The translations under genes and the position numbers were made by a program. The notes beneath the pieces are model-generated. The model ran no database searches. It had not been told where the DNA came from and saw only the letters and a program-made list of their open reading frames with translations. From Peptoniphilus sp. BV3C26 (GTDB lineage Bacteria > Bacillota > Clostridia > Tissierellales > Peptoniphilaceae), in contig NZ_AWXB01000058.1 of assembly GCF_000478985.1 (NCBI RefSeq), positions 62,001 to 126,000 on the forward strand: a stretch of 64,000 nucleotides of DNA, in the 5' to 3' direction. This document shows, one piece after another, positions 18,869-29,013 of the stretch. Every line of letters starts with the position of its first letter. The stretch's first letter is position 1.

Positions 18869-19484
18869 AATAATGATTGTAGACGATCAATTTGTATCAA
18901 GAGAACTGTTTAAACTTTATATTGACAAATCTCCCAACTATCAAGTCGTACACTCTATAGACAGTGCTATGTTTGCAGACACCTATGCCTTAAATGGAGA
19001 CATAGACCTGGTAATTATGGACATACTCATGCAAGACGGATCTAACGGTCTTGATGCAGCGGAAAAAATAAAAAGACTGAAACCAGACTTAAAAATAATA
19101 GCCGTAACAAGTATGCCTGAAGTTTCTTGGATGGAAAGAGCAAAAAAAATAGGAATTGAAAGTTTTTGGTATAAAGAAGTCTCCGAAAAAACAATCTTGG
19201 AAATTATTGAAAGAACTCTATGTGGAGAATCCATTTATCCTGAAGAAACACCAAAAGTTAAACTTGGACTTGTAGACTCAGCTAACCTAACCCCAAGAGA
19301 AATTCAAGTCCTTCGTCTTCTTACAACAGGAGTTGGTAATGAAGAAATTGCGAAAAGACTAAAAATTTCAGAAAATACAGTGAAAACTCACATAGGACAC
19401 CTTTTAAATAAAACAGGCTTTAAAACTCGAACACAACTTGCAATACAAGCTCGCATTACAGGTTTTGTAATAGAGGATGATTGA
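18858..19484 (+). CDS. NarL/LuxR-type response regulator
   Basis: A two-domain transcription regulator. The receiver domain carries the acidic pair IVDDQ (Asp9/10) and the phospho-acceptor Asp55 in IMDIL, and the switch residues VTS and K in WYKEV. The C-terminal LuxR-type helix-turn-helix begins at LTPREIQVLRLL and includes EEIAKRLKISENTVKTHI. The length of 208 residues is standard. It overlaps the kinase gene by 11 bases and is the last gene in the operon, followed by a strong terminator. The target promoters are unknown, though the divergent or leader hairpin region at 15.9 kb is a candidate. Confidence 0.94.
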   Translation: MTYKIMIVDDQFVSRELFKLYIDKSPNYQVVHSIDSAMFADTYALNGDIDLVIMDILMQDGSNGLDAAEKIKRLKPDLKIIAVTSMPEVSWMERAKKIGIESFWYKEVSEKTILEIIERTLCGESIYPEETPKVKLGLVDSANLTPREIQVLRLLTTGVGNEEIAKRLKISENTVKTHIGHLLNKTGFKTRTQLAIQARITGFVIEDD

Positions 19485-19524
19485 TTTTATAATTTTTTAA
19501 AAATTGAAATAATTTGAATAACTT

Positions 19525-19566
19525 AAAAAGGGCTATTGGAAAATATATTCCACTAAAGCCCTTTTT
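19525..19566. terminator. bidirectional intrinsic terminator
   Basis: AAAAAGGGCT and AGCCCTTTTT enclose a small inner stem (GGAA/TTCC). It sits between the converging regulator and stalk-protein genes. Confidence 0.88.
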
Positions 19567-19569
19567 GTT

Positions 19570-20316
19570 TTAATTAACTCCAATTAATAATTTAAAATCG
19601 TCCTTAAGTGGATCGTACTCTAAAAGCAAAGTTCCAACGTCATTAATAAAATATTGTCCAACAAGCTCTGACAAGTCCTTATCTATAGGATTGTCCTTTC
19701 TCACGCTTACAAAATAACCTTGGTCACTTTCATCTAAAAACTTTACTGAATATTTCTTAACATCAGTAACATAAGCCTTGTCATCAATAATTTGAAGTTC
19801 TTTTAACCTTAGTAAAACTTCACTAGCTGCATTATTTTCATTAATGTATTTAGGCAAATTTGACTTTTCGTTAATATAGACTGCCCTTATATTTCCATCC
19901 CATTCTACAATCATTCCCAAAAGTTCAGCCACAGACCTTAAAGAAAGAAAAGTTCTGTTGTTTTTAATAATGGGGGGACAATCAAGTAAAGCCGGCCCTG
20001 CCATTTTTTTATTTGAAATCCAAGCCATATCATCACCAATTGCAAGATAAATATTACTGTCATCCCTCTCTATATTTATGCTTTTATTTTCCTTTTTGTA
20101 AGTTACTTTTGCCCCAAGATTTTCAGCCACTGCCCTAAGGGGAAGAAAAACTCTGGAATCTAAGATAAAGGGCTCTTGATTTGATTTTATAAGCTCATCA
20201 TTTACATAAATTTTTACAGATTTATAAGCTTTAAATCCGCTTAAAATAAAAGCTGAAAAGATTATAGATAAGGCCATAAATTTTAAAATCATGTTTTTTT
20301 TCTTTAAATTTTTCAT
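19570..20316 (-). CDS. exported copper amine oxidase N-terminal (stalk) domain protein
   Basis: An extracellular protein made of paired stalk modules. Residues 1-30 are a signal peptide or anchor. Two copies of the CuAO_N1 repeat follow: VYVNDELIKSN with FLPLRAVAENLGAKVTY, and a second copy with FLSLRSVAELLGMIVEWDG. The C-terminal 90 residues are unique. These modules form wall-associated stalks in Firmicutes, and no amine oxidase active site is present. Its length is 248 residues. It stands alone, with a long intergenic region upstream. The AGAGGTGC site fits the ATG chosen. Confidence 0.87.
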   Translation of the reverse strand: MKNLKKKNMILKFMALSIIFSAFILSGFKAYKSVKIYVNDELIKSNQEPFILDSRVFLPLRAVAENLGAKVTYKKENKSINIERDDSNIYLAIGDDMAWISNKKMAGPALLDCPPIIKNNRTFLSLRSVAELLGMIVEWDGNIRAVYINEKSNLPKYINENNAASEVLLRLKELQIIDDKAYVTDVKKYSVKFLDESDQGYFVSVRKDNPIDKDLSELVGQYFINDVGTLLLEYDPLKDDFKLLIGVN

Positions 20317-20530
20317 AATAGCACCTCTTTAAATTTTTCCCAAAAATTTTTTGCAAATGAAAGTCTCAATGCTTTTATATTTTTATAAACCTGCTTTTTT
20401 AATTTTCCTTTTAAAAATATGTAATTAATCCTTCATATCCTTGTAATAGATTGTTTTTATTTTTTGCACATCACCCGAAAGGATGACATTTACATGTTTT
20501 TTTCAATTTTTTTGATCTTTTTATATATTT
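20317..20530. other. AT-rich intergenic region upstream of the stalk-protein gene
   Basis: Apart from the ribosome site of the stalk gene, only one notable patch is visible: around 20467-20490 a GAAA-loop mini-hairpin with the stem TCACCC/GGATGA (one mismatch). I find no coding region and no known riboswitch here. Confidence 0.4.
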
Positions 20531-20670
20531 TTTTATTTAATTCGCCTTCGCCGCCAGACCAATAGCGGATATTTGCAACCAAATCAAAGATTTGGGCAAA
20601 TAGTTGCATGAGACCTACCACGATTTTTTTTAAAAAATCGGGTTAGAGCTTCAAAATTGGTCCCTACATT
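20531..20670. repeat. long interspersed palindromic repeat, copy A (140 bp)
   Basis: This copy is almost identical to 56382-56519: the two differ by two single-base length changes and only a few substitutions. The ends are inverted (GACCAAT near the left, ATTGGTC near the right, outside them CGCCGCC and CCTACAT). Inside are two more palindromes: CAAATC with GATTTG, and CGATTTTTT with AAAAAATCG. No protein is encoded. It looks like a small non-autonomous or structural repeat. Confidence 0.9.
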
Positions 20671-20706
20671 GACTACATTGACTTTGTTTTATATTTTTTT
20701 TGCAAA

Positions 20707-20733
20707 TAAAAAAGAGACCTCTTAAGTCTCTTT
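20707..20733 (-). terminator. intrinsic terminator of the carboxypeptidase operon
   Basis: AAAGAGACTT and AGGTCTCTTT form a hairpin followed by a T run on the minus strand, 15 bases after the stop at 20748. Confidence 0.85.
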
Positions 20734-20747
20734 GGTAATTTTTTTAT

Positions 20748-22076
20748 TTATGCTGCAGATTTTTCCATATTGTAAAAGATGTCTCTGTATATTTGCATAA
20801 TCTTGTTTAAAATTCCCTTTTCTCGCACTTCTTCTTTTACTACTAAATTATTGTTTCCTATTTCTTTTCCGTCTATGGAATAAATTATTGTTCCAACTTT
20901 TGTTCCTTCTTTTAAGGGGGCTTTCATGGTGTCAAGTTGGATTTTTTCTTGAACTTTTTCTTCTTTATCTAAAAGCAAGCTCATGGGCTTTTCTATATAT
21001 ACGTCATATTCTTTTTTCAGGGCGTTTTCTATTTGGATTTTTCCTTTTGAGTTTTCTTCTGCTCCTAATATTGTCCATGAATATTTCTTAAAGCCATTTT
21101 CCATTATTCTCTTTGCCAGGACAAATCTTTTAAAGTCGTTTGTTGAGCCTGTTACAATTCCTATAAGCCTTGTGTCTTCACTTTCTTTTTCTTTTCCCTT
21201 GCTAAGACCTGTTGCTATTAATACTCTGCCGGCGGCGTTGGTGTTTCCTGTTTTTAGTCCGTCTATTTGAGGAAGTATTCCGAGAAGGGGATTGGTGTTG
21301 TATTCTTTATAATTTCTTTGGGGATCTTCCAAGACTTTTATGCTCGAGTAGTTTAAAATTTCAGGATAGTCGTGGATTAAACTTCTTGCAAGGATAAACA
21401 TTTCTCTTGTTGTCATCTTGTTATAGTCTTCTATGGTATAGTCTGTAAGCCCTGTTGGGTTTACCATGTGGGCGTTTGTAAGCCCAAGTTTTTTACATTT
21501 ATCATTCATAAGGACTGCAAAGTTTTCAACTGAGCCCGCTACTTTTTTGCTTAGGGCTGTTATTGCATCATTTCCCGAAACTACCATGGTTGCATCTAAA
21601 AGTTCTCTTACGGTTTTTTGATCGTTTTCTTTTAATTTGTAGGTTGAACCTATAAGGACTGAGCTTTCATGATCTACGGTTACTAGGTCATCTAAGCTTA
21701 GGTTTCCTTCTTTTATTTTATCTAAAATTACATATACGCTTACAAGTTTCGATGTGGATGCCATGGGTCTTACTTCGTCTATGTTGTTATATTCCAAGAT
21801 TTTTCCGCTCTTGTAGTCTCCAAGTAAAAAGGACTTTCCCAGATCTGAAGATGGAAGTTTTTCCAGCTCCATTATTTTGTTATATTCTTCAAAGGTGGCG
21901 TTTAAGGGTCCTTCTTTTGTGGGAACGAGTATTGGTTGATCTCTTACTGGTCCTTGATTTTCTTCTATTGCGGTTTGATTGTTTTCTTTTTCCTTAGTCT
22001 GAGCTCCTTCTACAAGGGTTAGGTTAGTAAAAAGTAAAAGCCCTGCAAGGAAAAAAATAAGGGAAGTTTTCTTCAT
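20748..22076 (-). CDS. D-alanyl-D-alanine carboxypeptidase (DacF-like, S11)
   Basis: A secreted or membrane-held penicillin-binding protein that trims D-Ala from peptidoglycan stems. Residues 1-25 form a signal peptide, then a polar linker extends to about 75. The active-site motifs are ASTSK (Ser107, Lys110), SGNDA and LKTGNTNAAG, in standard order and spacing. A C-terminal PBP5-like beta domain and an amphipathic anchor helix (NKIMQIYRDIFYNM) complete the 442 residues. It starts one base within the end of the thiamine-binding-like gene, so the two are coupled. The name DacF is by resemblance to Bacillus enzymes. Confidence 0.94.
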   Translation of the reverse strand: MKKTSLIFFLAGLLLFTNLTLVEGAQTKEKENNQTAIEENQGPVRDQPILVPTKEGPLNATFEEYNKIMELEKLPSSDLGKSFLLGDYKSGKILEYNNIDEVRPMASTSKLVSVYVILDKIKEGNLSLDDLVTVDHESSVLIGSTYKLKENDQKTVRELLDATMVVSGNDAITALSKKVAGSVENFAVLMNDKCKKLGLTNAHMVNPTGLTDYTIEDYNKMTTREMFILARSLIHDYPEILNYSSIKVLEDPQRNYKEYNTNPLLGILPQIDGLKTGNTNAAGRVLIATGLSKGKEKESEDTRLIGIVTGSTNDFKRFVLAKRIMENGFKKYSWTILGAEENSKGKIQIENALKKEYDVYIEKPMSLLLDKEEKVQEKIQLDTMKAPLKEGTKVGTIIYSIDGKEIGNNNLVVKEEVREKGILNKIMQIYRDIFYNMEKSAA

Positions 22077-22381
22077 TATTTCTCCAATTTTTCTTCTACG
22101 GATTTGATTTTTTCGTGAAAATCTCTTTCTTTGTCTCTTCGGTCGTCGATTTTTATTACGGAATAAACTCTGTTCGCTCCTTTTTTAAATACAGATTCTT
22201 GCATAATTTCTATAGCTTTATATAGTGTAGAAAGTTCTTCTGCTGCTATTACTGTTCCCATGGGGTTTAATTCATATTGTATTCCTTCCATGTCTTTAAT
22301 GCTGTCAAGAGCTCCTGCTACATATTTAGAACAACTTGTTCCTTGTCCTAGGGGTACAAGGGTAAGTTCACAAACTTTCAT
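22076..22381 (-). CDS. MTH1187/YkoF-type thiamine-binding family protein
   Basis: A small cytoplasmic protein of 101 residues from the MTH1187 (DUF77) family, some members of which bind thiamine. The signature is in the start CELTLVPLGQG and the middle YELNPMGTVIAAEELSTLYKAI. The start follows AAGGAGG with good spacing. It overlaps the following carboxypeptidase gene by one base. No thiamine genes are near, so the ligand is uncertain in this organism. Confidence 0.9.
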   Translation of the reverse strand: MKVCELTLVPLGQGTSCSKYVAGALDSIKDMEGIQYELNPMGTVIAAEELSTLYKAIEIMQESVFKKGANRVYSVIKIDDRRDKERDFHEKIKSVEEKLEK

Positions 22382-22479
22382 ATTTCCTCCTTAAATTTTT
22401 AAATAATATAAAATTCTTTTTCTATTGTATAACTGATTTTTTTAAGACTCAAGTTAAGTAATTCTTAAATTTAAAATTT

Positions 22480-23037
22480 TTACTTTTTAAAGCTTATATC
22501 TAAGTCATTTAATTTATATTTTTCAATGATTCTTATGACTTTTTCTGCATATTTAGGGTCAGTTGCGTAGCCTGCAGCTTTTATTTCTCCTATGGCCTCC
22601 TTATAAGTTTTGGCTTGCAGGACTTTTTTATATCTCTTTTTACTTCCTATTAAATTTCCATAATCGTAAAAAGAATCTTTTTTGGATTTATATTTTCTGA
22701 AATTTTCCTTTTGCTTAACAGACTTGCCATTTATATATTCTTCTGTTTCCAAGGCTACTGTATCTTTTTTACCCTTTATGCCAAAATAATTATTATATTC
22801 AGAAGAAAGCTTACTTCTTCCGTAATTACTTTCAAGAGCGGATTGGGCAAGGGTTACTGATGGAAAAAGTCCATATTGGTTGGAAACTTCTATTGCTAAA
22901 TCTTTTGTACTTTCTATGTATTCTTTTTTTATATCTATCTGATTTTTTTGAGCATTTTGTACAATTAAAAGAAATAAAAATATGGGAATTAACAAAAAAC
23001 TCAAACAACCGATTTTTTTCTTCTTTTTTTTCGCCAT
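22480..23037 (-). CDS. N-acetylglucosaminidase domain (LytG/FlgJ-like) protein
   Basis: A cell-wall hydrolase with an N-terminal membrane anchor (residues 7-25, IGCLSFLLIPIFLFLLIV, after a lysine cluster). The catalytic domain follows: LAQSALESNYGRSKLS, in which Glu is the catalytic acid, then YNNYFGIKG and the tail ending KYAEKVIRIIEKY. It has 185 residues, so it is a minimal domain with no repeats or wall-binding part. Its AGGGAGGACC site is good. It is transcribed before the thiamine-binding-like and carboxypeptidase genes and fits the local wall-remodelling theme. Confidence 0.9.
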   Translation of the reverse strand: MAKKKKKKIGCLSFLLIPIFLFLLIVQNAQKNQIDIKKEYIESTKDLAIEVSNQYGLFPSVTLAQSALESNYGRSKLSSEYNNYFGIKGKKDTVALETEEYINGKSVKQKENFRKYKSKKDSFYDYGNLIGSKKRYKKVLQAKTYKEAIGEIKAAGYATDPKYAEKVIRIIEKYKLNDLDISFKK

Positions 23038-23121
23038 AGGTCCTCCCTGCCCTTTATTTTATCAAAAATAGGTCATAAAATATATATAAGCTTTATAGTA
23101 TAATGAATTAGAGGTGATTTT

Positions 23122-24036
23122 TTGAAGCCTGTTGACTTATCTTTTACTGGTTTTGAGTTTGATAATTGCAAAAATAAAAAGAAATATTCAATTTTCCACA
23201 AAGAATATCCTTTAATTCTTTCTCGAGATATGCTTATGGCAATAGAATATCTTCTTTGGTATGTTCCCAATATAAACTCCATTCAATCTTCAAAAAATGA
23301 TATGGTGGAGTCCATAGATTTTGATGATTTTTCCTTTGATATTGTAATGGAAAATATGAATCTTAAAAAAGAAGATGTGGCTTTTTTAGACTATATAAAT
23401 CCTTTAATTGTAAATTTTTATAGAGATGAGATTTGCACCAATTGTCAAAAAATAATTTTAACTCGCTATGAAAATGAATCCAAGACCAAAAGTCTTTTAA
23501 GGCACATTAGAAATGCCATTGCTCACGGATATTTTAATGTTGTAGATGGAATCTTAATAGGTTTTGATTTTAAAAATGAAAATTATAAAATTGACGACTG
23601 CACGGGAATTTTTAAAATCAGACCTGAAAATTTACTTAAAGCTTTAAAAATTTTAGATCTTGAGGTTACAGAAGAAAAACTTGCTTCCATTGCTCTTAAA
23701 AAAACTGGTTACGAAGTTGAAGGTTTTGAAGATGAAAATATCAAATTAGGCTTTGATTTTTGGGCTAAAAAAGGCAATAAAAGATATGCCGTTGAAGTTA
23801 AAAAATATCCGGAACATAAAACTTTGCCTCAAGATGCCATAGACAAATTAATCAAAGAATTTTCTGGAACCTATGCAAAAAATGCAAAGCCCGTTTTATT
23901 TATAAACACATCCCTTATGACGGATAATGAAAAGACAAAGTTAAGAAGAGAAAAAGTAATTTTGTTAGACGTTAAAAATATTAAGAAAATGCTTAGAGGA
24001 ATAGATATTTTAAAAGAAATTGAAAAACATGAATGA
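23122..24036 (+). CDS. HEPN-like domain plus PD-(D/E)XK nuclease-like protein
   Basis: The family is not one I can name. The start is TTG at 23122, with GAGGTGA upstream. The region about 85-175 is helical and contains RHIRNAIAHG, a perfect RN-x3-H motif (Arg130, His135) of HEPN ribonucleases and HEPN-like proteins. From about residue 185 a PD-(D/E)XK-like fold can be seen: KKTGYEVEGFEDENI, then LGFDFWAKKGNKRYAVEVKKY, in which Asp212 and Glu225-x-Lys227 fit the metal-binding set. There are 304 residues. Fusions of HEPN and this nuclease fold suggest RNA/DNA damage, as in abortive infection, but this is an inference. It overlaps tadA by eight bases. Confidence 0.7.
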   Translation: MKPVDLSFTGFEFDNCKNKKKYSIFHKEYPLILSRDMLMAIEYLLWYVPNINSIQSSKNDMVESIDFDDFSFDIVMENMNLKKEDVAFLDYINPLIVNFYRDEICTNCQKIILTRYENESKTKSLLRHIRNAIAHGYFNVVDGILIGFDFKNENYKIDDCTGIFKIRPENLLKALKILDLEVTEEKLASIALKKTGYEVEGFEDENIKLGFDFWAKKGNKRYAVEVKKYPEHKTLPQDAIDKLIKEFSGTYAKNAKPVLFINTSLMTDNEKTKLRREKVILLDVKNIKKMLRGIDILKEIEKHE

Positions 24037-24499
24037 TATATATTTTATGAAACTTACTTTAAGGCTGGCAAAAAAAGCTTATAGCCTTGGTGAAGTCCCT
24101 GTTGGAGCTATAGTAACCCTTGATAATAAAATTGTAGGTTACGGTTACAATTTAAAGGAAACTTTAAAAGATGCCACAGAGCATGCGGAAATACGGGCCT
24201 TAAAAATGGCGGCGAAAAATTTAAAAACTTACCACCTTGAAGGTGGACGCATGTACGTCAATTTAGAGCCCTGTTCCATGTGCGCTGGTGCTATGGTCCT
24301 ATTTCGTATTAAAACTCTTGTAATAGGCTGTGACAGCCTCAGAATGGGTGCTGCTGGGTCTAATCTTAATATCTTAAATAGAGAAGGCTTAAATCATAAA
24401 GTCGAAGTTGTAAGAGGTGTTTTAAAGGACGAGTCCAACAGATTAATTTCAAATTTTTTTGAAGAAATGAGATTTTATAAAGAAAGGAATGGAAGATAA
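24029..24499 (+). CDS. tadA: tRNA-specific adenosine deaminase TadA
   Basis: The enzyme converts adenosine 34 of tRNA-Arg to inosine. The zinc site is complete: HAEIRALKMA provides His and the catalytic Glu, and PCSMCAG provides the two Cys. The opening MKLTLRLAKKAYSLGEVPVGAI is typical. It has 156 residues. The start chosen is the ATG overlapping the end of the previous gene; a TTG nine bases upstream is possible, but the ATG is the better fit. No strong ribosome site is present, so it is likely translated by coupling with the nuclease-like gene. Confidence 0.93.
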   Translation: MNDIYFMKLTLRLAKKAYSLGEVPVGAIVTLDNKIVGYGYNLKETLKDATEHAEIRALKMAAKNLKTYHLEGGRMYVNLEPCSMCAGAMVLFRIKTLVIGCDSLRMGAAGSNLNILNREGLNHKVEVVRGVLKDESNRLISNFFEEMRFYKERNGR

Positions 24500-24533
24500 T
24501 TTTTCGTGAGAATTTTTATTCCATTCCTTTTTA
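24483..24533 (+). terminator. intrinsic terminator of tadA
   Basis: AAAGGAATGGAA and TTCCATTCCTTT flank a 24-base loop and are followed by T residues. The stem includes the last codons and the stop of tadA. Confidence 0.85.
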
Positions 24534-24547
24534 TTTAATTGGATTTG

Positions 24548-24604
24548 CCGTCGGACCAATTTCAGATATTTGCTGTCGGTCCGTTTATGTCGCGTGGGAG
24601 AAAA
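24548..24604. repeat. palindromic repeat, degenerate copy (family of 20531)
   Basis: Starts GCCGTCGGACCAAT, continues AGATATTTGC as in the long copies, then breaks into TGTCGGTCCG and ends GTCGCGTGGGAG. It looks like a shortened long copy joined to a minimal-unit tail. Confidence 0.7.
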
Positions 24605-24695
24605 AATAAATATTTGAATTAAAATTTATTTTACATTATTTAAGAAATCCTTTCATTTTAAACAAATTTATTTTCACCATAACCCTTGAAAATCT

Positions 24696-24740
24696 TGTAG
24701 GGACCGGTTTACCGGTCCGCGTGTATAATGTGAGAGAAAA
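24696..24740. repeat. palindromic repeat, minimal hairpin copy (inverted orientation)
   Basis: TGTAGGGACCGG, TTTA, CCGGTCCGCGTG form a hairpin. The reverse complement shows the same left and right ends as the long copies, with GG/CC in place of AAT/ATT at the centre. Confidence 0.8.
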
Positions 24741-24851
24741 AGCTTAACATTTTTTATAAATTATTTTTACGCTCTACGTGAAGCATTTATTTTAAAATTT
24801 TCAACATACCTTTTTTCATTTTTTTATTTTATTTCTATTGATTCGGCTGAC

Positions 24852-24881
24852 GCCGTCGGACCAATAAATTGGTCCCTACAT
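24852..24881. repeat. palindromic repeat, minimal hairpin copy
   Basis: GCCGTCGGACCAAT directly followed by AAATTGGTCCCTACAT. This is the left and right end of the long repeats with the middle missing. Confidence 0.82.
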
Positions 24882-24909
24882 TTATTTGCGAAGATTTATT
24901 TTTGTGATT

Positions 24910-24953
24910 TGTAGGGACCGGTTTACCGGTCCGCGTGTGTCGGGTGAGAAAAC
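24910..24953. repeat. palindromic repeat, minimal hairpin copy (inverted orientation)
   Basis: Nearly the same as 24696-24740: TGTAGGGACCGG, TTTA, CCGGTCCGCGTGTG and a GTGAGAAAA tail. Together with its neighbours it fills the 575-base gene-free stretch after tadA. Confidence 0.82.
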
Positions 24954-25022
24954 AAAATCCACATTTGATTTAAAATTTATTTTTAAATCTACATTTTTAT
25001 TTTTATTTTTTTTATGCAAATT

Positions 25023-25065
25023 AAAAAATACCTTATAGGTTTTATTGCCATATAAGGTCTTTTTA
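25023..25065 (-). terminator. intrinsic terminator of the superoxide reductase gene
   Basis: ACCTTATA and TATAAGGT form the stem, followed by a T run on the minus strand, 10 bases after the stop. Confidence 0.85.
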
Positions 25066-25074
25066 TTTTAAGTT

Positions 25075-25428
25075 TTAGATTTCTAATGAATTTTCCCAAA
25101 GTCCGTGAATGTTGCAATAGCTTAGTGCATAAACTAGACCTGATTTTTCAGTTTTTATGCATACATTTACTTCTGGTTTAGAACAAATTTCTTCTTCTCC
25201 GTGAGCGCTAAATGTATATGAGCCTACTTCTGTTGGAAATTTTGCTCCTTCCGGTTGGAAAAATACTTTTATCCAAGCTATATGATGTTCAAGAGTATTA
25301 GGATGTTCTACTTCTTCTCCTACAAGTGCATGAATTTTTAAGCATCCTTCTGATTTTTCTGCATGAAGTGCAGGTACGTGTTTTTCGTTTTTCCAATCTC
25401 CTGATTGTACTGTTTGTGTTAATTTCAT
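25075..25428 (-). CDS. superoxide reductase (neelaredoxin/class II desulfoferrodoxin)
   Basis: A small iron enzyme of anaerobes that reduces superoxide to peroxide. The iron ligands can be followed: KHVPALH, HPNTLEHHIAW and CNIHGLW give four His and one Cys, with the catalytic lysine in EKHVP. There is no N-terminal desulforedoxin domain, so it is class II. The start is the ATG at 25428, which has GGGAGG seven bases upstream; an upstream in-frame ATG gives nine extra residues without a site. The length of 117 residues is typical. Thioredoxin reductase, thiol peroxidase and MsrB in the window give the same oxygen-defence theme. Confidence 0.93.
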   Translation of the reverse strand: MKLTQTVQSGDWKNEKHVPALHAEKSEGCLKIHALVGEEVEHPNTLEHHIAWIKVFFQPEGAKFPTEVGSYTFSAHGEEEICSKPEVNVCIKTEKSGLVYALSYCNIHGLWENSLEI

Positions 25429-25523
25429 ATATTTACCTCCCAAATTTTTAACCATTATATATTTACCCTTATGTTTTTTTATTATTCACTTTCTTGGTAA
25501 ATTTTATTTTTTATTCTTAAATT

Positions 25524-25549
25524 AAAAAAACCGCAAGTTGTTTTGCGGC
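25524..25549 (-). terminator. intrinsic terminator of the YabE-like gene
   Basis: CCGCAA and TTGCGG form a short stem followed by seven T residues on the minus strand. Confidence 0.85.
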
Positions 25550-25561
25550 TTTATTTTTAAA

Positions 25562-26554
25562 TTATTCAATTACATATACTTTTACATTTCTTCTTCCGAA
25601 TCTGTTTGCTTGTGCGTTGGTGTTGTAGAATAAGTCTATTCTTTTACCTTTTATTGCACCGCCTGTATCTTCTGCTACTGCATATCCATAGGTTGGAAAT
25701 CCGTCCATTGATTCAATGTAAAGTTTTGATCCTAGGGGTATTACTCTTGGGTCTACTGCTACGGCACCTACTCTTGCACGAGTACCCATGGCGGTTCTTG
25801 ATCCTGCTGTTGGGTCATAGGCTGTTGCCTGCATTACATAAACTGCTTTTACTTTTTTGCCTTCAAGGCCCTTTGCTTGTGGTTTTTTTGTTCCCACTTC
25901 TTTTATTTCGTCAACGGGCTCTTGAATTATTTGACTTTTTACAACTTCAACTTTTGAAGGAACTCCATTAACGTATGTTGTTTCAATGGTGTTTCTTTGA
26001 AGTCCTTTTACACCAATTTGTATGATGTTTACTTCTGATTCGTATTTTTGATCATTTTTTTGTTCTTTGCTTTCAAAGTTTATTTCAACTTCTTCTTCTG
26101 TGCTTCTCTTTTCTATTCTGTCAACTTTAATTGTCATTCCTTGAGTTGCTTTTTCAGTAACTGAGGGATTTACTCTATCAAATTCATTTAGGTCTATTCC
26201 TAAATCTCTAAGTACATCGCCTACGCTCTCTCCTTGAGCTTCAGTTATAAGAGTTTTGTTTCCGTCTTTTATTATATATGACTTGGGAGAAATAATTTTT
26301 ATTTCCATCTTGTCTACTATTTCTGTATCCAAGTCCGGATCAACTAATTCTCTATTTTTTAATTCAATTTTTTCAGTTTTTAAAAATTCTTCTACTGTTT
26401 TTGAATATGTTACTATATTTTTTTCTTGTCCATTAATGTTAAGCACGACATTTTTTCCGAGAGCTGTTGAAAAACCCATTGTCACAATTGCTATTACAAA
26501 TAGGGACAAAAGGATAATTTTTCTAATTCTCCCGTTAATATTTCGTTCTTTCAT
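25562..26554 (-). CDS. YabE-like cell-wall protein (DUF348, G5, 3D domains)
   Basis: An exported, probably wall-active protein of 330 residues. A signal anchor lies at residues 10-32. DUF348-like modules follow (VVLNINGQEKNIVTYSKTVEEFL; TLITEAQGESVGDVLRDLGI, in parts), then a G5 domain at about 160-240 and a C-terminal 3D domain: MQATAYDPTAGSRTAMGTRA, VDPRVIPLGSKLYIE, AEDTGGAIKGKRIDLFY. Three conserved Asp residues of the 3D domain are intact, as in the lytic transglycosylase-like fold. The ATG at 26554 has GGAGG six bases upstream. WalR-type boxes flank its promoter. Confidence 0.92.
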   Translation of the reverse strand: MKERNINGRIRKIILLSLFVIAIVTMGFSTALGKNVVLNINGQEKNIVTYSKTVEEFLKTEKIELKNRELVDPDLDTEIVDKMEIKIISPKSYIIKDGNKTLITEAQGESVGDVLRDLGIDLNEFDRVNPSVTEKATQGMTIKVDRIEKRSTEEEVEINFESKEQKNDQKYESEVNIIQIGVKGLQRNTIETTYVNGVPSKVEVVKSQIIQEPVDEIKEVGTKKPQAKGLEGKKVKAVYVMQATAYDPTAGSRTAMGTRARVGAVAVDPRVIPLGSKLYIESMDGFPTYGYAVAEDTGGAIKGKRIDLFYNTNAQANRFGRRNVKVYVIE

Positions 26555-26578
26555 AAAAAACCTCCAATTCTCATGAAA

Positions 26579-26595
26579 TGTTACTATTTTGTAAC
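26579..26595 (-). promoter_or_regulatory. WalR-like box, downstream of the promoter
   Basis: TGTTAC-TATTT-TGTAAC fits the WalR (YycF) consensus TGTWAH-N5-TGTWAH exactly. It lies in the transcribed leader, about +8 to +24. Confidence 0.55.
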
Positions 26596-26609
26596 TTTTC
26601 ATAGTTTTG

Positions 26610-26638
26610 AGTATAATTTATAAAAGTTTAATTGTCAA
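26610..26638 (-). promoter_or_regulatory. sigma-A promoter of the YabE-like gene
   Basis: TTGACA (26633-26638), a 17-base spacer and TATACT (26610-26615) on the minus strand make an almost ideal promoter. Confidence 0.82.
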
Positions 26639-26644
26639 ATTTTT

Positions 26645-26661
26645 TGTAACTTTTTTGTTAC
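26645..26661 (-). promoter_or_regulatory. WalR-like box, upstream of the promoter
   Basis: TGTAAC-TTTTT-TGTTAC fits TGTWAH-N5-TGTWAH exactly and is just upstream of the -35 box, a usual position for activation. WalR control of wall hydrolases is known in other Firmicutes; here it is inferred. Confidence 0.58.
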
Positions 26662-26682
26662 ACTTTAAAAATTCAATAAAAT

Positions 26683-26750
26683 ACAGGCTTAAATAAGTTT
26701 TAAAAAAATAATTTTTTGAAATTTATTTTTTTTATCTTATCTAAGCCTGT
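26683..26750 (-). terminator. long-loop inverted repeat, possible terminator of the Nudix operon
   Basis: ACAGGCTTAAATAAG and CTTATCTAAGCCTGT pair at 14 of 15 positions around a 38-base AT-rich loop. A weak T-rich run follows on the minus strand. It lies between the Nudix stop and the YabE-like promoter, so it may end the operon. Confidence 0.5.
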
Positions 26751-26785
26751 TAAATAGCGATTTATTTTTTTATATTACAAGTTGA

Positions 26786-27430
26786 TTAAATTTTTGTAAA
26801 CTTTTGGGAAATTATGTCCGTGAAGTTTCTAATCATTTTTGCAGTAAAACCCCAGATTATTTCTTCTTTATAGTGGTACAATTCCACTATTTCCCCATAT
26901 CTTTTAAATTTATAATTTTCTCCATTGGGAATTAAATCGTAGGGAAAGTCCGGTTCTTTTGTAATTTTTATACTGGTTTTATAAGCATCGGGAGAATTTT
27001 CCAAGAAAAAACTTAGAGGAACTGTAAAAATATAAGACACTTCATCTTTATTTGCTTTTATCTTATAAAATTCTTCATCAATTAGACCTATAAAAGTGTA
27101 AATTATTTCCCTATTGGGATTTACTAAAAAATTTCCCTGGGCAAAAATTTTTATTTTATTTTTTTCTATTAAAAGTTCTTCGCAGGTTTCTCTTATTGCC
27201 GCCTCTTTTTCTTCTTCAAAGGCTTCAATCTTTCCTCCGGGAAAAGAAACTTCACCCGGTTGTGTTCTTAAAGAATCCGCTCTTCTTTCAAAAAGAACGT
27301 GGATTTCTCCATCCACCAATATAAGAGGAATTAAAACTGAATATCTACTTTTTATATCAACGGGCAAAGGTTTGTGACCTTTTATAAGCTCTTCTATTTT
27401 TTCTAAGTTTATATTATCTAATTTATCCAT
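26786..27430 (-). CDS. Nudix hydrolase, CoA pyrophosphatase-like
   Basis: The enzyme is predicted to hydrolyse CoA or a related dinucleotide pyrophosphate in the cytoplasm. The Nudix box is GGKIEAFEEEKEAAIRETCE ELL, with the preceding SFPGG typical of the NudL/YeaB CoA pyrophosphatases. The length of 214 residues fits. The start lies eight bases inside the mscL end, so it is co-transcribed with mscL and dCMP deaminase. The substrate is by family only; no CoA-specific motif is proved. Confidence 0.87.
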   Translation of the reverse strand: MDKLDNINLEKIEELIKGHKPLPVDIKSRYSVLIPLILVDGEIHVLFERRADSLRTQPGEVSFPGGKIEAFEEEKEAAIRETCEELLIEKNKIKIFAQGNFLVNPNREIIYTFIGLIDEEFYKIKANKDEVSYIFTVPLSFFLENSPDAYKTSIKITKEPDFPYDLIPNGENYKFKRYGEIVELYHYKEEIIWGFTAKMIRNFTDIISQKFTKI

Positions 27431-27872
27431 TTAATTCTGATGTGCAGTGAGGGCATCTTGTTGCCTCAACATTTATCTGACTCTTACAATAAGGGCAGAT
27501 TTTACTTGTTACTTTTTCTTCTTCCGGTTTTTTAAATTTATTTGTAAGCTTTGTCATTTCTCTTATTATTGTAAATATTACAAGAGAAATTATTAAAAAG
27601 TTGACCACATTTTGAATGAAACTTCCATAAGCAAAGGTTGCAGTTGCTTCTTTTGCTGCTGCTAAAGTTGGATAGTCCTTTCCATCAAGGGCATAAAACA
27701 TTTGGCTGAAGTCATTTCCTCCTGTTAATTTTCCAATAATAGGCATCATTATATCATTTACAAGAGATGTTACTATACTTCCGAAAGCGCCACCTATTAT
27801 AACACCAATAGCCATGTCAACTACATTTCCCCTTGAAATGAAATCTTTAAAATCATTTACAAATTTTTTCAT
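27423..27872 (-). CDS. mscL: large-conductance mechanosensitive channel MscL with zinc-ribbon tail
   Basis: A two-helix membrane channel that opens under osmotic down-shock. The start MKKFVNDFKDFISRGNVVDMA is the family signature; TM1 is about 16-42 and TM2 about 84-105. Residues 126-143 add two cysteine pairs (CPYC and CPHC), a zinc-ribbon tail that standard MscL of E. coli or Bacillus lacks. It is 149 residues. It has an AAGGA ribosome site. It follows dCMP deaminase and overlaps the Nudix gene by eight bases. Confidence 0.95.
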   Translation of the reverse strand: MKKFVNDFKDFISRGNVVDMAIGVIIGGAFGSIVTSLVNDIMMPIIGKLTGGNDFSQMFYALDGKDYPTLAAAKEATATFAYGSFIQNVVNFLIISLVIFTIIREMTKLTNKFKKPEEEKVTSKICPYCKSQINVEATRCPHCTSELNG

Positions 27873-27887
27873 CTTTATCCTTCCTTT

Positions 27888-28325
27888 TTAATCTTTCAAT
27901 CCTTCTTCCATTTTTACGAGTTTTATATTATTTTTTTCTATAAGTTCAAGGGCATATTGGTCCATCCTATAGGCATTTAAATAATATATTTCTTTTATAC
28001 CCGCCTGTAAAAGTGCCTTGGTACAATTTAAACATGGAAAATGAGTCACATAACACTTACAATTTTTAACTGATATACCTTCCTTGGCACAATATAAAAG
28101 GGCGTTCATCTCCGCATGAATTGTAGCTATACAGTGACCATCACGCATAGTATGTCCTATTTCATCACAAGAGGGATTGCCGGCTAAAGAACCATTATAG
28201 CCTGTGGATACAATTCTGTTGTCTGAATTTACAAGGACACATCCTACAAAGGCCCTGTCGCAAGTTGATCTTTTTGCCACAAGTTTTGTTATGTCCATAA
28301 AATATTGATCCCAAGATTTTCTCAT
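27888..28325 (-). CDS. dCMP deaminase (ComEB-like)
   Basis: A zinc enzyme converting dCMP to dUMP for thymidylate synthesis. The zinc site is [11 protein letters not shown] and PCLNCTKAL, with the opening [21 protein letters not shown] typical of the family; NPSCDEIGH supplies the extra zinc ligand often seen in this family. The length of 145 residues is normal. Its ATG overlaps the TGA of the ribonuclease HI gene in the shifted frame (ATGA at 28322-28325), which supports that the upstream gene once read through to here. Confidence 0.93.
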
Positions 28326-28925
28326 ATTGCCTCCTTTGCAAGTTTGTCAACATATTCATTAAGCTCAACTCCCTTATGGGATTTAACTTTAATAAAAACA
28401 ACTTCCAAACTTTCTTTTATATTATCATAAAAAGACCTTATAGTCCTTTGTAAGGCTTTTATTTGTCTGCCAATTTCCAAGGGCCCAGTCTTCTATTCCC
28501 CTATAGTCATAGTGGATATAAATTTTATCTTTTTTAAGTTCTACCGCTCTTTTCATTGCAAGAATGGCTCCCTTTAATTCTCCTGCTACATTTCTAAAAG
28601 AAGCATCTTCATCGAAAAATCTTTTTGAATATTCTTCCTTAATTTTTCTATCTCTTAAATAAACTCCGTAGGAATAAGACTTATCCTCATCTCTATAAGA
28701 ACCATCAACATAGGCAACCATTTCATTTTCCTTTAAATCTTCAAAAGATTTTAAGGAAACATCTTCTTTTAAATTTTCATTGGAACTATTTATAAAAGCC
28801 TGAGCTTCTTCTAAAGTTTTAAACTTTTTATAAACTGCATTTTTAAATCCCATGACCTGTTCCTTGCACTGGTCCCAAGTTTTATAAATCCCTCTTTCTC
28901 TTCCCACTTTTACAGCGTAATACAT
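28322..28925 (-). pseudogene. rnhA: ribonuclease HI with hybrid-binding N-terminus, interrupted by a frameshift
   Basis: RNase HI cuts the RNA strand of RNA-DNA hybrids. The ATG at 28925 has GAGGTGG upstream. Residues 1-45 form the caulimovirus-type hybrid-binding domain (YYAVKVGRERGIYKTWDQC). The catalytic domain begins MVAYVDGSYRD, with the acidic residues in DGSY, GELKGAILAM and HYDYRGIEDW. The frame ends after KDYKVFL at 28425. Removing one T from the T5 run (28429-28433 on the plus strand) gives KVFYDNIKESLEVVFIKVK and [18 protein letters not shown], the proper C-terminus with its HxG loop. The stop then overlaps comEB as ATGA. It is either a fresh mutation or a sequencing indel. Confidence 0.85.
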
Positions 28926-28963
28926 TTTCCACCTCAAAAATATTATACCAAAAGACAAGAAAT

Positions 28964-28992
28964 AAAAAAGGACGAGCTTTTTCTCGTCCTTG
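28964..28992 (-). terminator. intrinsic terminator of groESL
   Basis: AAGGACGAG and CTCGTCCTT form the stem, followed by six T residues on the minus strand, 22 bases after groEL. Confidence 0.92.
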
Positions 28993-29013
28993 ATTTTAAT
29001 TTTATTTTGATTT

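Follow-up and report, generated by a model that had tools for sequence, protein, structure and literature searches.

A gene that runs into tadA in Peptoniphilus sp. BV3C26 raises the question of what its product does, in which the original prediction recognised a possible fusion of a HEPN domain with a PD-(D/E)XK nuclease. The window, i.e. the whole stretch of DNA that was analysed, comprises 64,000 nucleotides, and the features of the locus are collected in Table 1. The open reading frame is a genuine gene; the starts of relatives align with that of the fusion protein within a few residues, and their lengths are about equal. The stop codon occupies 24034-24036, and the overlap with tadA amounts to 8 bases when counted from the ATG at 24029 or 17 bases when counted from the listed TTG at 24020, which is in frame with the ATG. 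In a scan for promoters and terminators, promoter-like sites were no commoner than in shuffled sequences. Downstream of tadA, at 24540-24945 of the window, recurring palindromic units around GGACCGGTTTACCGGTCC were seen by eye, apparently intergenic repeats.

Table 1 Features of the fusion locus, in positions of the window
Feature	Position	Strand	Basis or remark
Fusion gene, predicted HEPN and Mrr-type PD-(D/E)XK halves	23122..24036	+	304 aa, TTG start; matched in 68/130 family genomes
Ribosome-binding site AGAGGTGA ahead of the TTG start	23110..23117	+	read from sequence
Predicted N-terminal HEPN domain, residues 1-181, pEK499_p136-like	23122..23664	+	PF18736, L153 homology, model pLDDT 89.1
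Family fingerprint LLWYVPNIxSxQS, residues 44-56	23251..23289	+	partly common to HEPN-only L153
HEPN motif R130-N-x3-H135, end of helix 121-134	23509..23526	+	invariant in 58/58 readable copies; DSSP
C-terminal Mrr-type PD-(D/E)XK domain, residues 183-304	23668..24033	+	Mrr_cat over cut-off; VIA-align fold matches
PD-(D/E)XK triad D212, E225, K227 at hairpin 213-217/220-226	23755..23802	+	DSSP; strict triad in 36/58
tadA	24029..24499	+	overlaps the fusion gene; not part of the system

Identity of the two halves

The R-N-x3-H motif of the N-terminal half lies at Arg130 and His135 as originally described, and conforms to the definition of the HEPN superfamily, an Rx4-6H motif with a polar residue after the arginine (PMC3710099). 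Within the window, R-N-x3-H occurs in one of 61 non-overlapping open reading frames of at least 100 aa; among 20,000 shuffles of the fusion protein it arises in 1.3%, and R-N-x2-A-H in 0.045%. R130, N131 and H135 are unchanged in every readable copy. Likeness to the pEK499_p136 family (PF18736) extends from this motif to the profile itself, which reaches E 0.1 or lower in 30 of 33 diverse relatives (best 3.2e-5), and to a P-N-I-x-S segment. The window protein differs in scoring under the gathering cut-off (19.8 bits against 26.6, residues 104-153) and in being fused to a Mrr-type domain; the row for pEK499_p136 in Table 1 of PMC3710099 gives no REase fusion. The HEPN half is nonetheless linked to PF18736 through an accepted member, because the HEPN-only protein L153 passes the cut-off with 36.0 bits and aligns to the N-terminal half of the fusion family (A2) with E 2.1e-7 and probability 93.6, the P-N-I-x-S segment lying within this alignment. 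In one divergent second copy (L065), Pfam detects no HEPN domain at E 0.1.

AlphaFold models reached a pLDDT of 89.1 and a pTM of 0.87 for the N-terminal half alone, and 87.2 and 0.80 for the full-length protein. According to DSSP, the N-terminal model contains helices 35-47, 65-78 and 121-134, the last ending in the motif, followed by a beta-hairpin and helix 168-180, an order that fits HEPN domains, whose helical bundle carries the motif at the end of helix 3, with the elements following one another in the same way and, in Csx1, the hairpin coming right after the motif (PMC3710099). In a fold search, the modelled half matched no solved structure with a Z of at least 2, a result that speaks neither for nor against a HEPN fold, and sequence searches of solved structures returned nothing credible. 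The N-terminal half is thus predicted, from sequence rather than from structure comparison, to be a pEK499_p136-like HEPN domain.

D212, E225 and K227 likewise sit where the original prediction had placed them, and the window protein thereby carries a D...[DE]xK triad. A loose D-x8-20-[DE]-x-K pattern is however present in 46 of the 61 window reading frames, so that a nuclease set picked by eye meant little by itself. The assignment comes from Mrr_cat (PF04471), which covers residues 185-291 of the window protein with E 6.6e-9 and 36.3 bits (cut-off 21) and is found in 19 of the 33 relatives at E 0.1 or below, in conjunction with fold comparison by VIA-align. Here, the C-terminal half matched Cdn1 (Z 10.9, rmsd 2.7, 115 aligned), AF1548 (Z 9.8, rmsd 3.2, 110 aligned) and Can2 (Z 9.4, rmsd 3.0, 115 aligned), and Z values of 10.9, 10.1 and 9.8 place it in the restriction-endonuclease fold. 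In a comparison with a viral fold library, the named matches under E 0.001 were restriction or Mrr-type proteins. In the model, D212 lies just before one hairpin strand, E225 on the next strand and K227 just after it. The C-terminal half is a Mrr-type PD-(D/E)XK domain, and the proposed fusion is supported by Mrr_cat, by PF18736 in relatives, by the bridge through L153 and by the restriction-fold matches.

The fusion shares with Mrr-type restriction endonucleases a C-terminal domain over the PF04471 cut-off, and differs from them in the HEPN half in front and in the frequent replacement of K227 (16 of 59). Cdn1 and Can2, CRISPR ancillary nucleases, are top fold matches of its C-terminal half; Cdn1 carries a CARF sensing domain where the fusion protein has a HEPN domain, and so does Can2. 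Since Cdn1 cuts ssRNA, a restriction-like fold need not mean a DNase. HEPN-REase fusions as such have arisen on multiple independent occasions, and DUF4145, EC042_2821 and Vsr-type fusions also join HEPN to a restriction fold (PMC3710099). As described there, these belong to other HEPN families, several of them with helicase, wHTH or zinc-ribbon domains or in R-M operons, whereas the protein studied here has two domains only and lies mostly at housekeeping-type loci. A literature search over titles and abstract openings, a scope outside which most subscription papers fall, found no description of the fusion protein among the matches listed, and a search combining HEPN with Anaerococcus found nothing. 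While HEPN-REase fusions are known, the pairing of a pEK499_p136-like HEPN half with a Mrr-type domain, and the near-core status described below, look new.

Triad variation and selection in the restriction-like half

The two halves differ in how their motifs are kept. In the alignment of 33 rows, 19 columns are invariant, and every one of them falls in the HEPN half. Among the 58 rows of the tree, the triad reads DEK in 34, DDK in 2, DER in 12, EDK in 5, DEL in 2 and DEH, DEI and DKK in one each. The strict D-[DE]-K pattern is thus kept in 36 of 58 and absent from 22, with at least seven changes between intact and off on the tree; EDK counts as off here though acidic at both places, and if it is taken as intact the total rises to 41 of 58. 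The proposed PD-(D/E)XK set therefore holds for the window protein, but a description as two active nucleases cannot be extended to the family as a whole.

In the replacement of K227, arginine takes its place in 12 of the 16 affected relatives. K217 is near-invariant, being lysine in 58 of 59 copies, including all 16 that lack K227. Because most of the changes are mild (lysine to arginine) and K217 is kept in 16 of 16, loss of K227 does not establish loss of cutting. It is possible that K217 acts as a displaced catalytic lysine; the alternative reading is binding without cutting.

Selection was estimated from 15 chosen pairs, nine lysine-lost (two of them saturated) and six lysine-kept. For the nuclease half, dN/dS was 0.04-0.10 in the seven estimable pairs in which both members lack K227, with dS below 1 in two only (L104/L105, 0.08, and L101/L102, 0.05), and 0.06-0.16 in the six pairs that keep it, none of which is saturated. 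A wider set of 25 pairs gives rough medians, as it takes in near-saturated pairs with L072 and the fragment L083. Strong purifying selection was computed for both halves, and the nuclease half remains under it after the lysine changes, i.e. it is not decaying. The low dN/dS of pairs without K227 argues that this half is still needed, for instance for binding.

Distribution, loci and accessory copies

A profile of the fusion protein was matched by 68 genomes out of the 130 in its own family, spread over 14 of 39 genera; G109, which is among the 68, has the nuclease part only, and the other 62 genomes have no match. Within three genera the gene is nearly fixed, with matches in 31 of 31 genomes of g25 (Anaerococcus, judging by named loci), 12 of 14 of g23 and 7 of 8 of g3, the first count being derived from an uninterrupted series of matching genomes (G068-G097 plus G025), as 42 non-matching genomes were absent from the listing, and the others likewise. 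Beyond the family, matches become scarce and mostly partial: the order sample contains 70 matching genomes in 249, the two additional ones matching the nuclease part only, the class sample of 391 genomes one full-length copy outside the family (G296) plus nine partial matches, and the phylum sample of 398 genomes sixteen partial matches outside it. PF18736 itself, used as query in a class sample of 341 genomes, matched six, one over the cut-off. No copies were found in plasmid, phage or viral collections, which may omit records of the window's own genome, nor was the HEPN-only L153 found in plasmids.

Sixty of 72 match places were fetched, and 59 proteins including the window protein were analysed; L075, at a contig end, and L115, with the nuclease part only, have no focal reading frame and were left out, and the tree of 58 rows also omits L083, a broken gene. 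Mapped onto the tree of the HEPN half, the labels of 13 genera can be explained by 13 changes, against a minimum of 12 and a shuffled mean of 32.4. The genera g3, g14 and g32 form single supported clades, while g25 needs three changes and g23 and g5 two each, in part owing to second copies.

The loci are mostly genus-specific, stable and chromosomal, and the neighbours of resident copies are by eye of housekeeping type. In g3, g32 and g8, the fusion gene lies in 9 of 10 loci beside genes that we take to be rplM/rpsI, judging by their sequence. A membrane-protein gene follows within two genes in 19 of the 20 main g25 loci fetched, and a small one follows in 10 of 12 main g23 loci. As regards a conserved partner of the kind found in type II toxin-antitoxin systems, no neighbour of at least 70 aa is common to the genera, in a search that would miss smaller partners or RNA antitoxins. 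PADLOC 2023 gave no convincing match of the window protein to known anti-phage systems (best E 0.013), and for 33 relatives only weak matches scattered over 11 families (best E 1.2e-4). Ten window neighbours were scanned, and four of them match PADLOC models (CARF-like, PDC-S07, dCTPase and ABC-ATPase) with E values of 1e-5 or lower, which were judged to reflect generic shared domains.

We note that in 4 of 59 loci (L070, Pfam-confirmed, L107, L109 and L116) the gene immediately upstream, in the same orientation, encodes a macro domain; the macro-domain cluster comprises 15 genes in 61 loci. Operons that combine pEK499_p136-type HEPN genes with macro and R-M genes are described (PMC3710099), so that the association may go beyond chance, but it is suggestive at most, the loci being related by descent.

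A second, divergent copy is present in three g25 genomes and one g23 genome, and the second copies form one supported clade together with a g60 sequence. That of g23 (L084) adjoins a GmrSD-type restriction gene, and L072, the most divergent member, lies between Maff2 and a gene for a T4SS coupling protein, which places it in a conjugative element. For the remaining second copies, L065, L067 and L069, and for L076, no mobile or restriction neighbours were recognised. The HEPN-only L153 sits within an apparent type I R-M operon, the hsd naming being by eye. Some of these contexts, of accessory copies and of L153, point to a defence or mobile origin. Whether homologues lie beside defence genes or always beside tadA had been posed as a check; one divergent copy adjoins the GmrSD-type restriction gene and another lies in the conjugative element, resident copies have, by eye, neighbours of housekeeping type, and tadA is no constant neighbour, most homologues lying at their genus-specific loci.

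Three further observations concern this group. In genome G141, the resident copy L083 (4893-5879) is split into two frames of 145 and 158 aa with the HEPN motif between them, and the same genome holds the intact, divergent L084. At L155:4827-6578 (minus strand), a protein of 583 aa carries RNSLAH and RDCIAH, both of them HEPN-like, and reaches no Pfam cut-off. At L154:4314-5225 (plus strand), a protein of 303 aa has a C-terminal HEPN-like RHLRNSIAHG and no Pfam match at E 0.1.

Proposed function and rival explanations

We propose, with a probability of roughly 45%, that the fusion protein is a stand-alone HEPN endoribonuclease effector controlled by a restriction-like nucleic-acid-binding domain, encoded by a formerly mobile defence gene that is now resident. 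The restriction-like half would bind a nucleic-acid signal, i.e. foreign, modified or broken DNA, or RNA, and would perhaps cut it where the triad is intact. Binding would in turn switch on a HEPN dimer, which would cut cellular RNA and thereby halt growth, as in abortive infection. We infer RNA cleavage, ligand and defence role in part from the prediction that HEPN domains act as RNases of suicide or dormancy and are coupled to R-M genes (PMC3710099). The suggestion of a stand-alone protein from a defence-type family is supported to this extent. Against a role in defence speak the presence in every g25 genome, unusual for a defence gene, the housekeeping-type neighbours and the absence of copies from the plasmid, phage and viral collections searched.

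Near-fixation and the type of neighbours favour the chief rival, a housekeeping endoribonuclease whose HEPN half would process normal cellular RNA or answer the cell's own DNA damage, the restriction-like half only positioning the substrate. Near-fixation in three genera (31/31, 12/14, 7/8), genus-specific loci beside, by eye, ribosomal-protein genes among others, a gene tree that largely follows the genera (13 changes, minimum 12, shuffled mean 32.4) and dN/dS mostly of 0.04-0.16 where estimable all agree with such an enzyme. However, 62 of 130 family genomes do without a match, so that the gene is not essential to the family, and the second copy beside a restriction gene, the most divergent copy in a conjugative element and the homologue L153 among R-M genes (by eye) fit it poorly; we consider it less likely. 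A type IV-like restriction enzyme, in which the Mrr-type domain would cleave DNA and the HEPN half serve dimerisation or regulation, is unlikely: Mrr_cat over its cut-off, the intact D-E-K triad of the window protein and K217 (58/59) as a potential displaced catalytic lysine are in agreement with it, but the strict triad is missing from 22 of 58 copies, five of them by a mere EDK swap, whereas all 58 readable copies retain the HEPN motif, and every invariant column of the alignment of 33 rows falls in the HEPN half.

Most improbable is a tRNA-linked factor, as derived from the tadA overlap. The overlap of reading frames is genuine, but it is found in only two of the 59 copies, those of the window and L096, which belong to a single genus, and we rejected a tadA-linked function since other genera lack it. 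In four more copies tadA is the next gene on the same strand, 563-825 bases downstream, and L079 is followed by a tadA sequence in broken form. ARAGORN detected a tRNA or tmRNA in 3 of 61 loci, and an Rfam search at gathering thresholds found no structured RNA in seven loci or in 19000-29000 of the window. The tRNA-linked reading is largely refuted by the other genera; tadA looks like a neighbour in some lineages rather than a partner, and the overlap like a local accident.

Returning to the effector reading, the HEPN-Mrr module would have come from mobile defence genes and settled as a resident in the chromosome of some members of the Peptoniphilus/Anaerococcus family. More tentatively, a mobile HEPN-Mrr suicide nuclease may have been domesticated early in this one family and become core in several genera, its RNase site immutable, while the restriction-like half may be changing, in several independent instances, from a cutter to a conserved nucleic-acid sensor on which RNA cleavage depends. 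HEPN RNases are usually viewed as mobile defence genes of patchy occurrence. The near fixation of a HEPN-restriction fusion at stable loci in several anaerobic genera hence offers a tractable case of a defence-type RNase turning resident, and the natural versions of the fusion with and without the motif lysine represent natural experiments in which the use of the restriction fold as a sensor versus scissors is directly testable.
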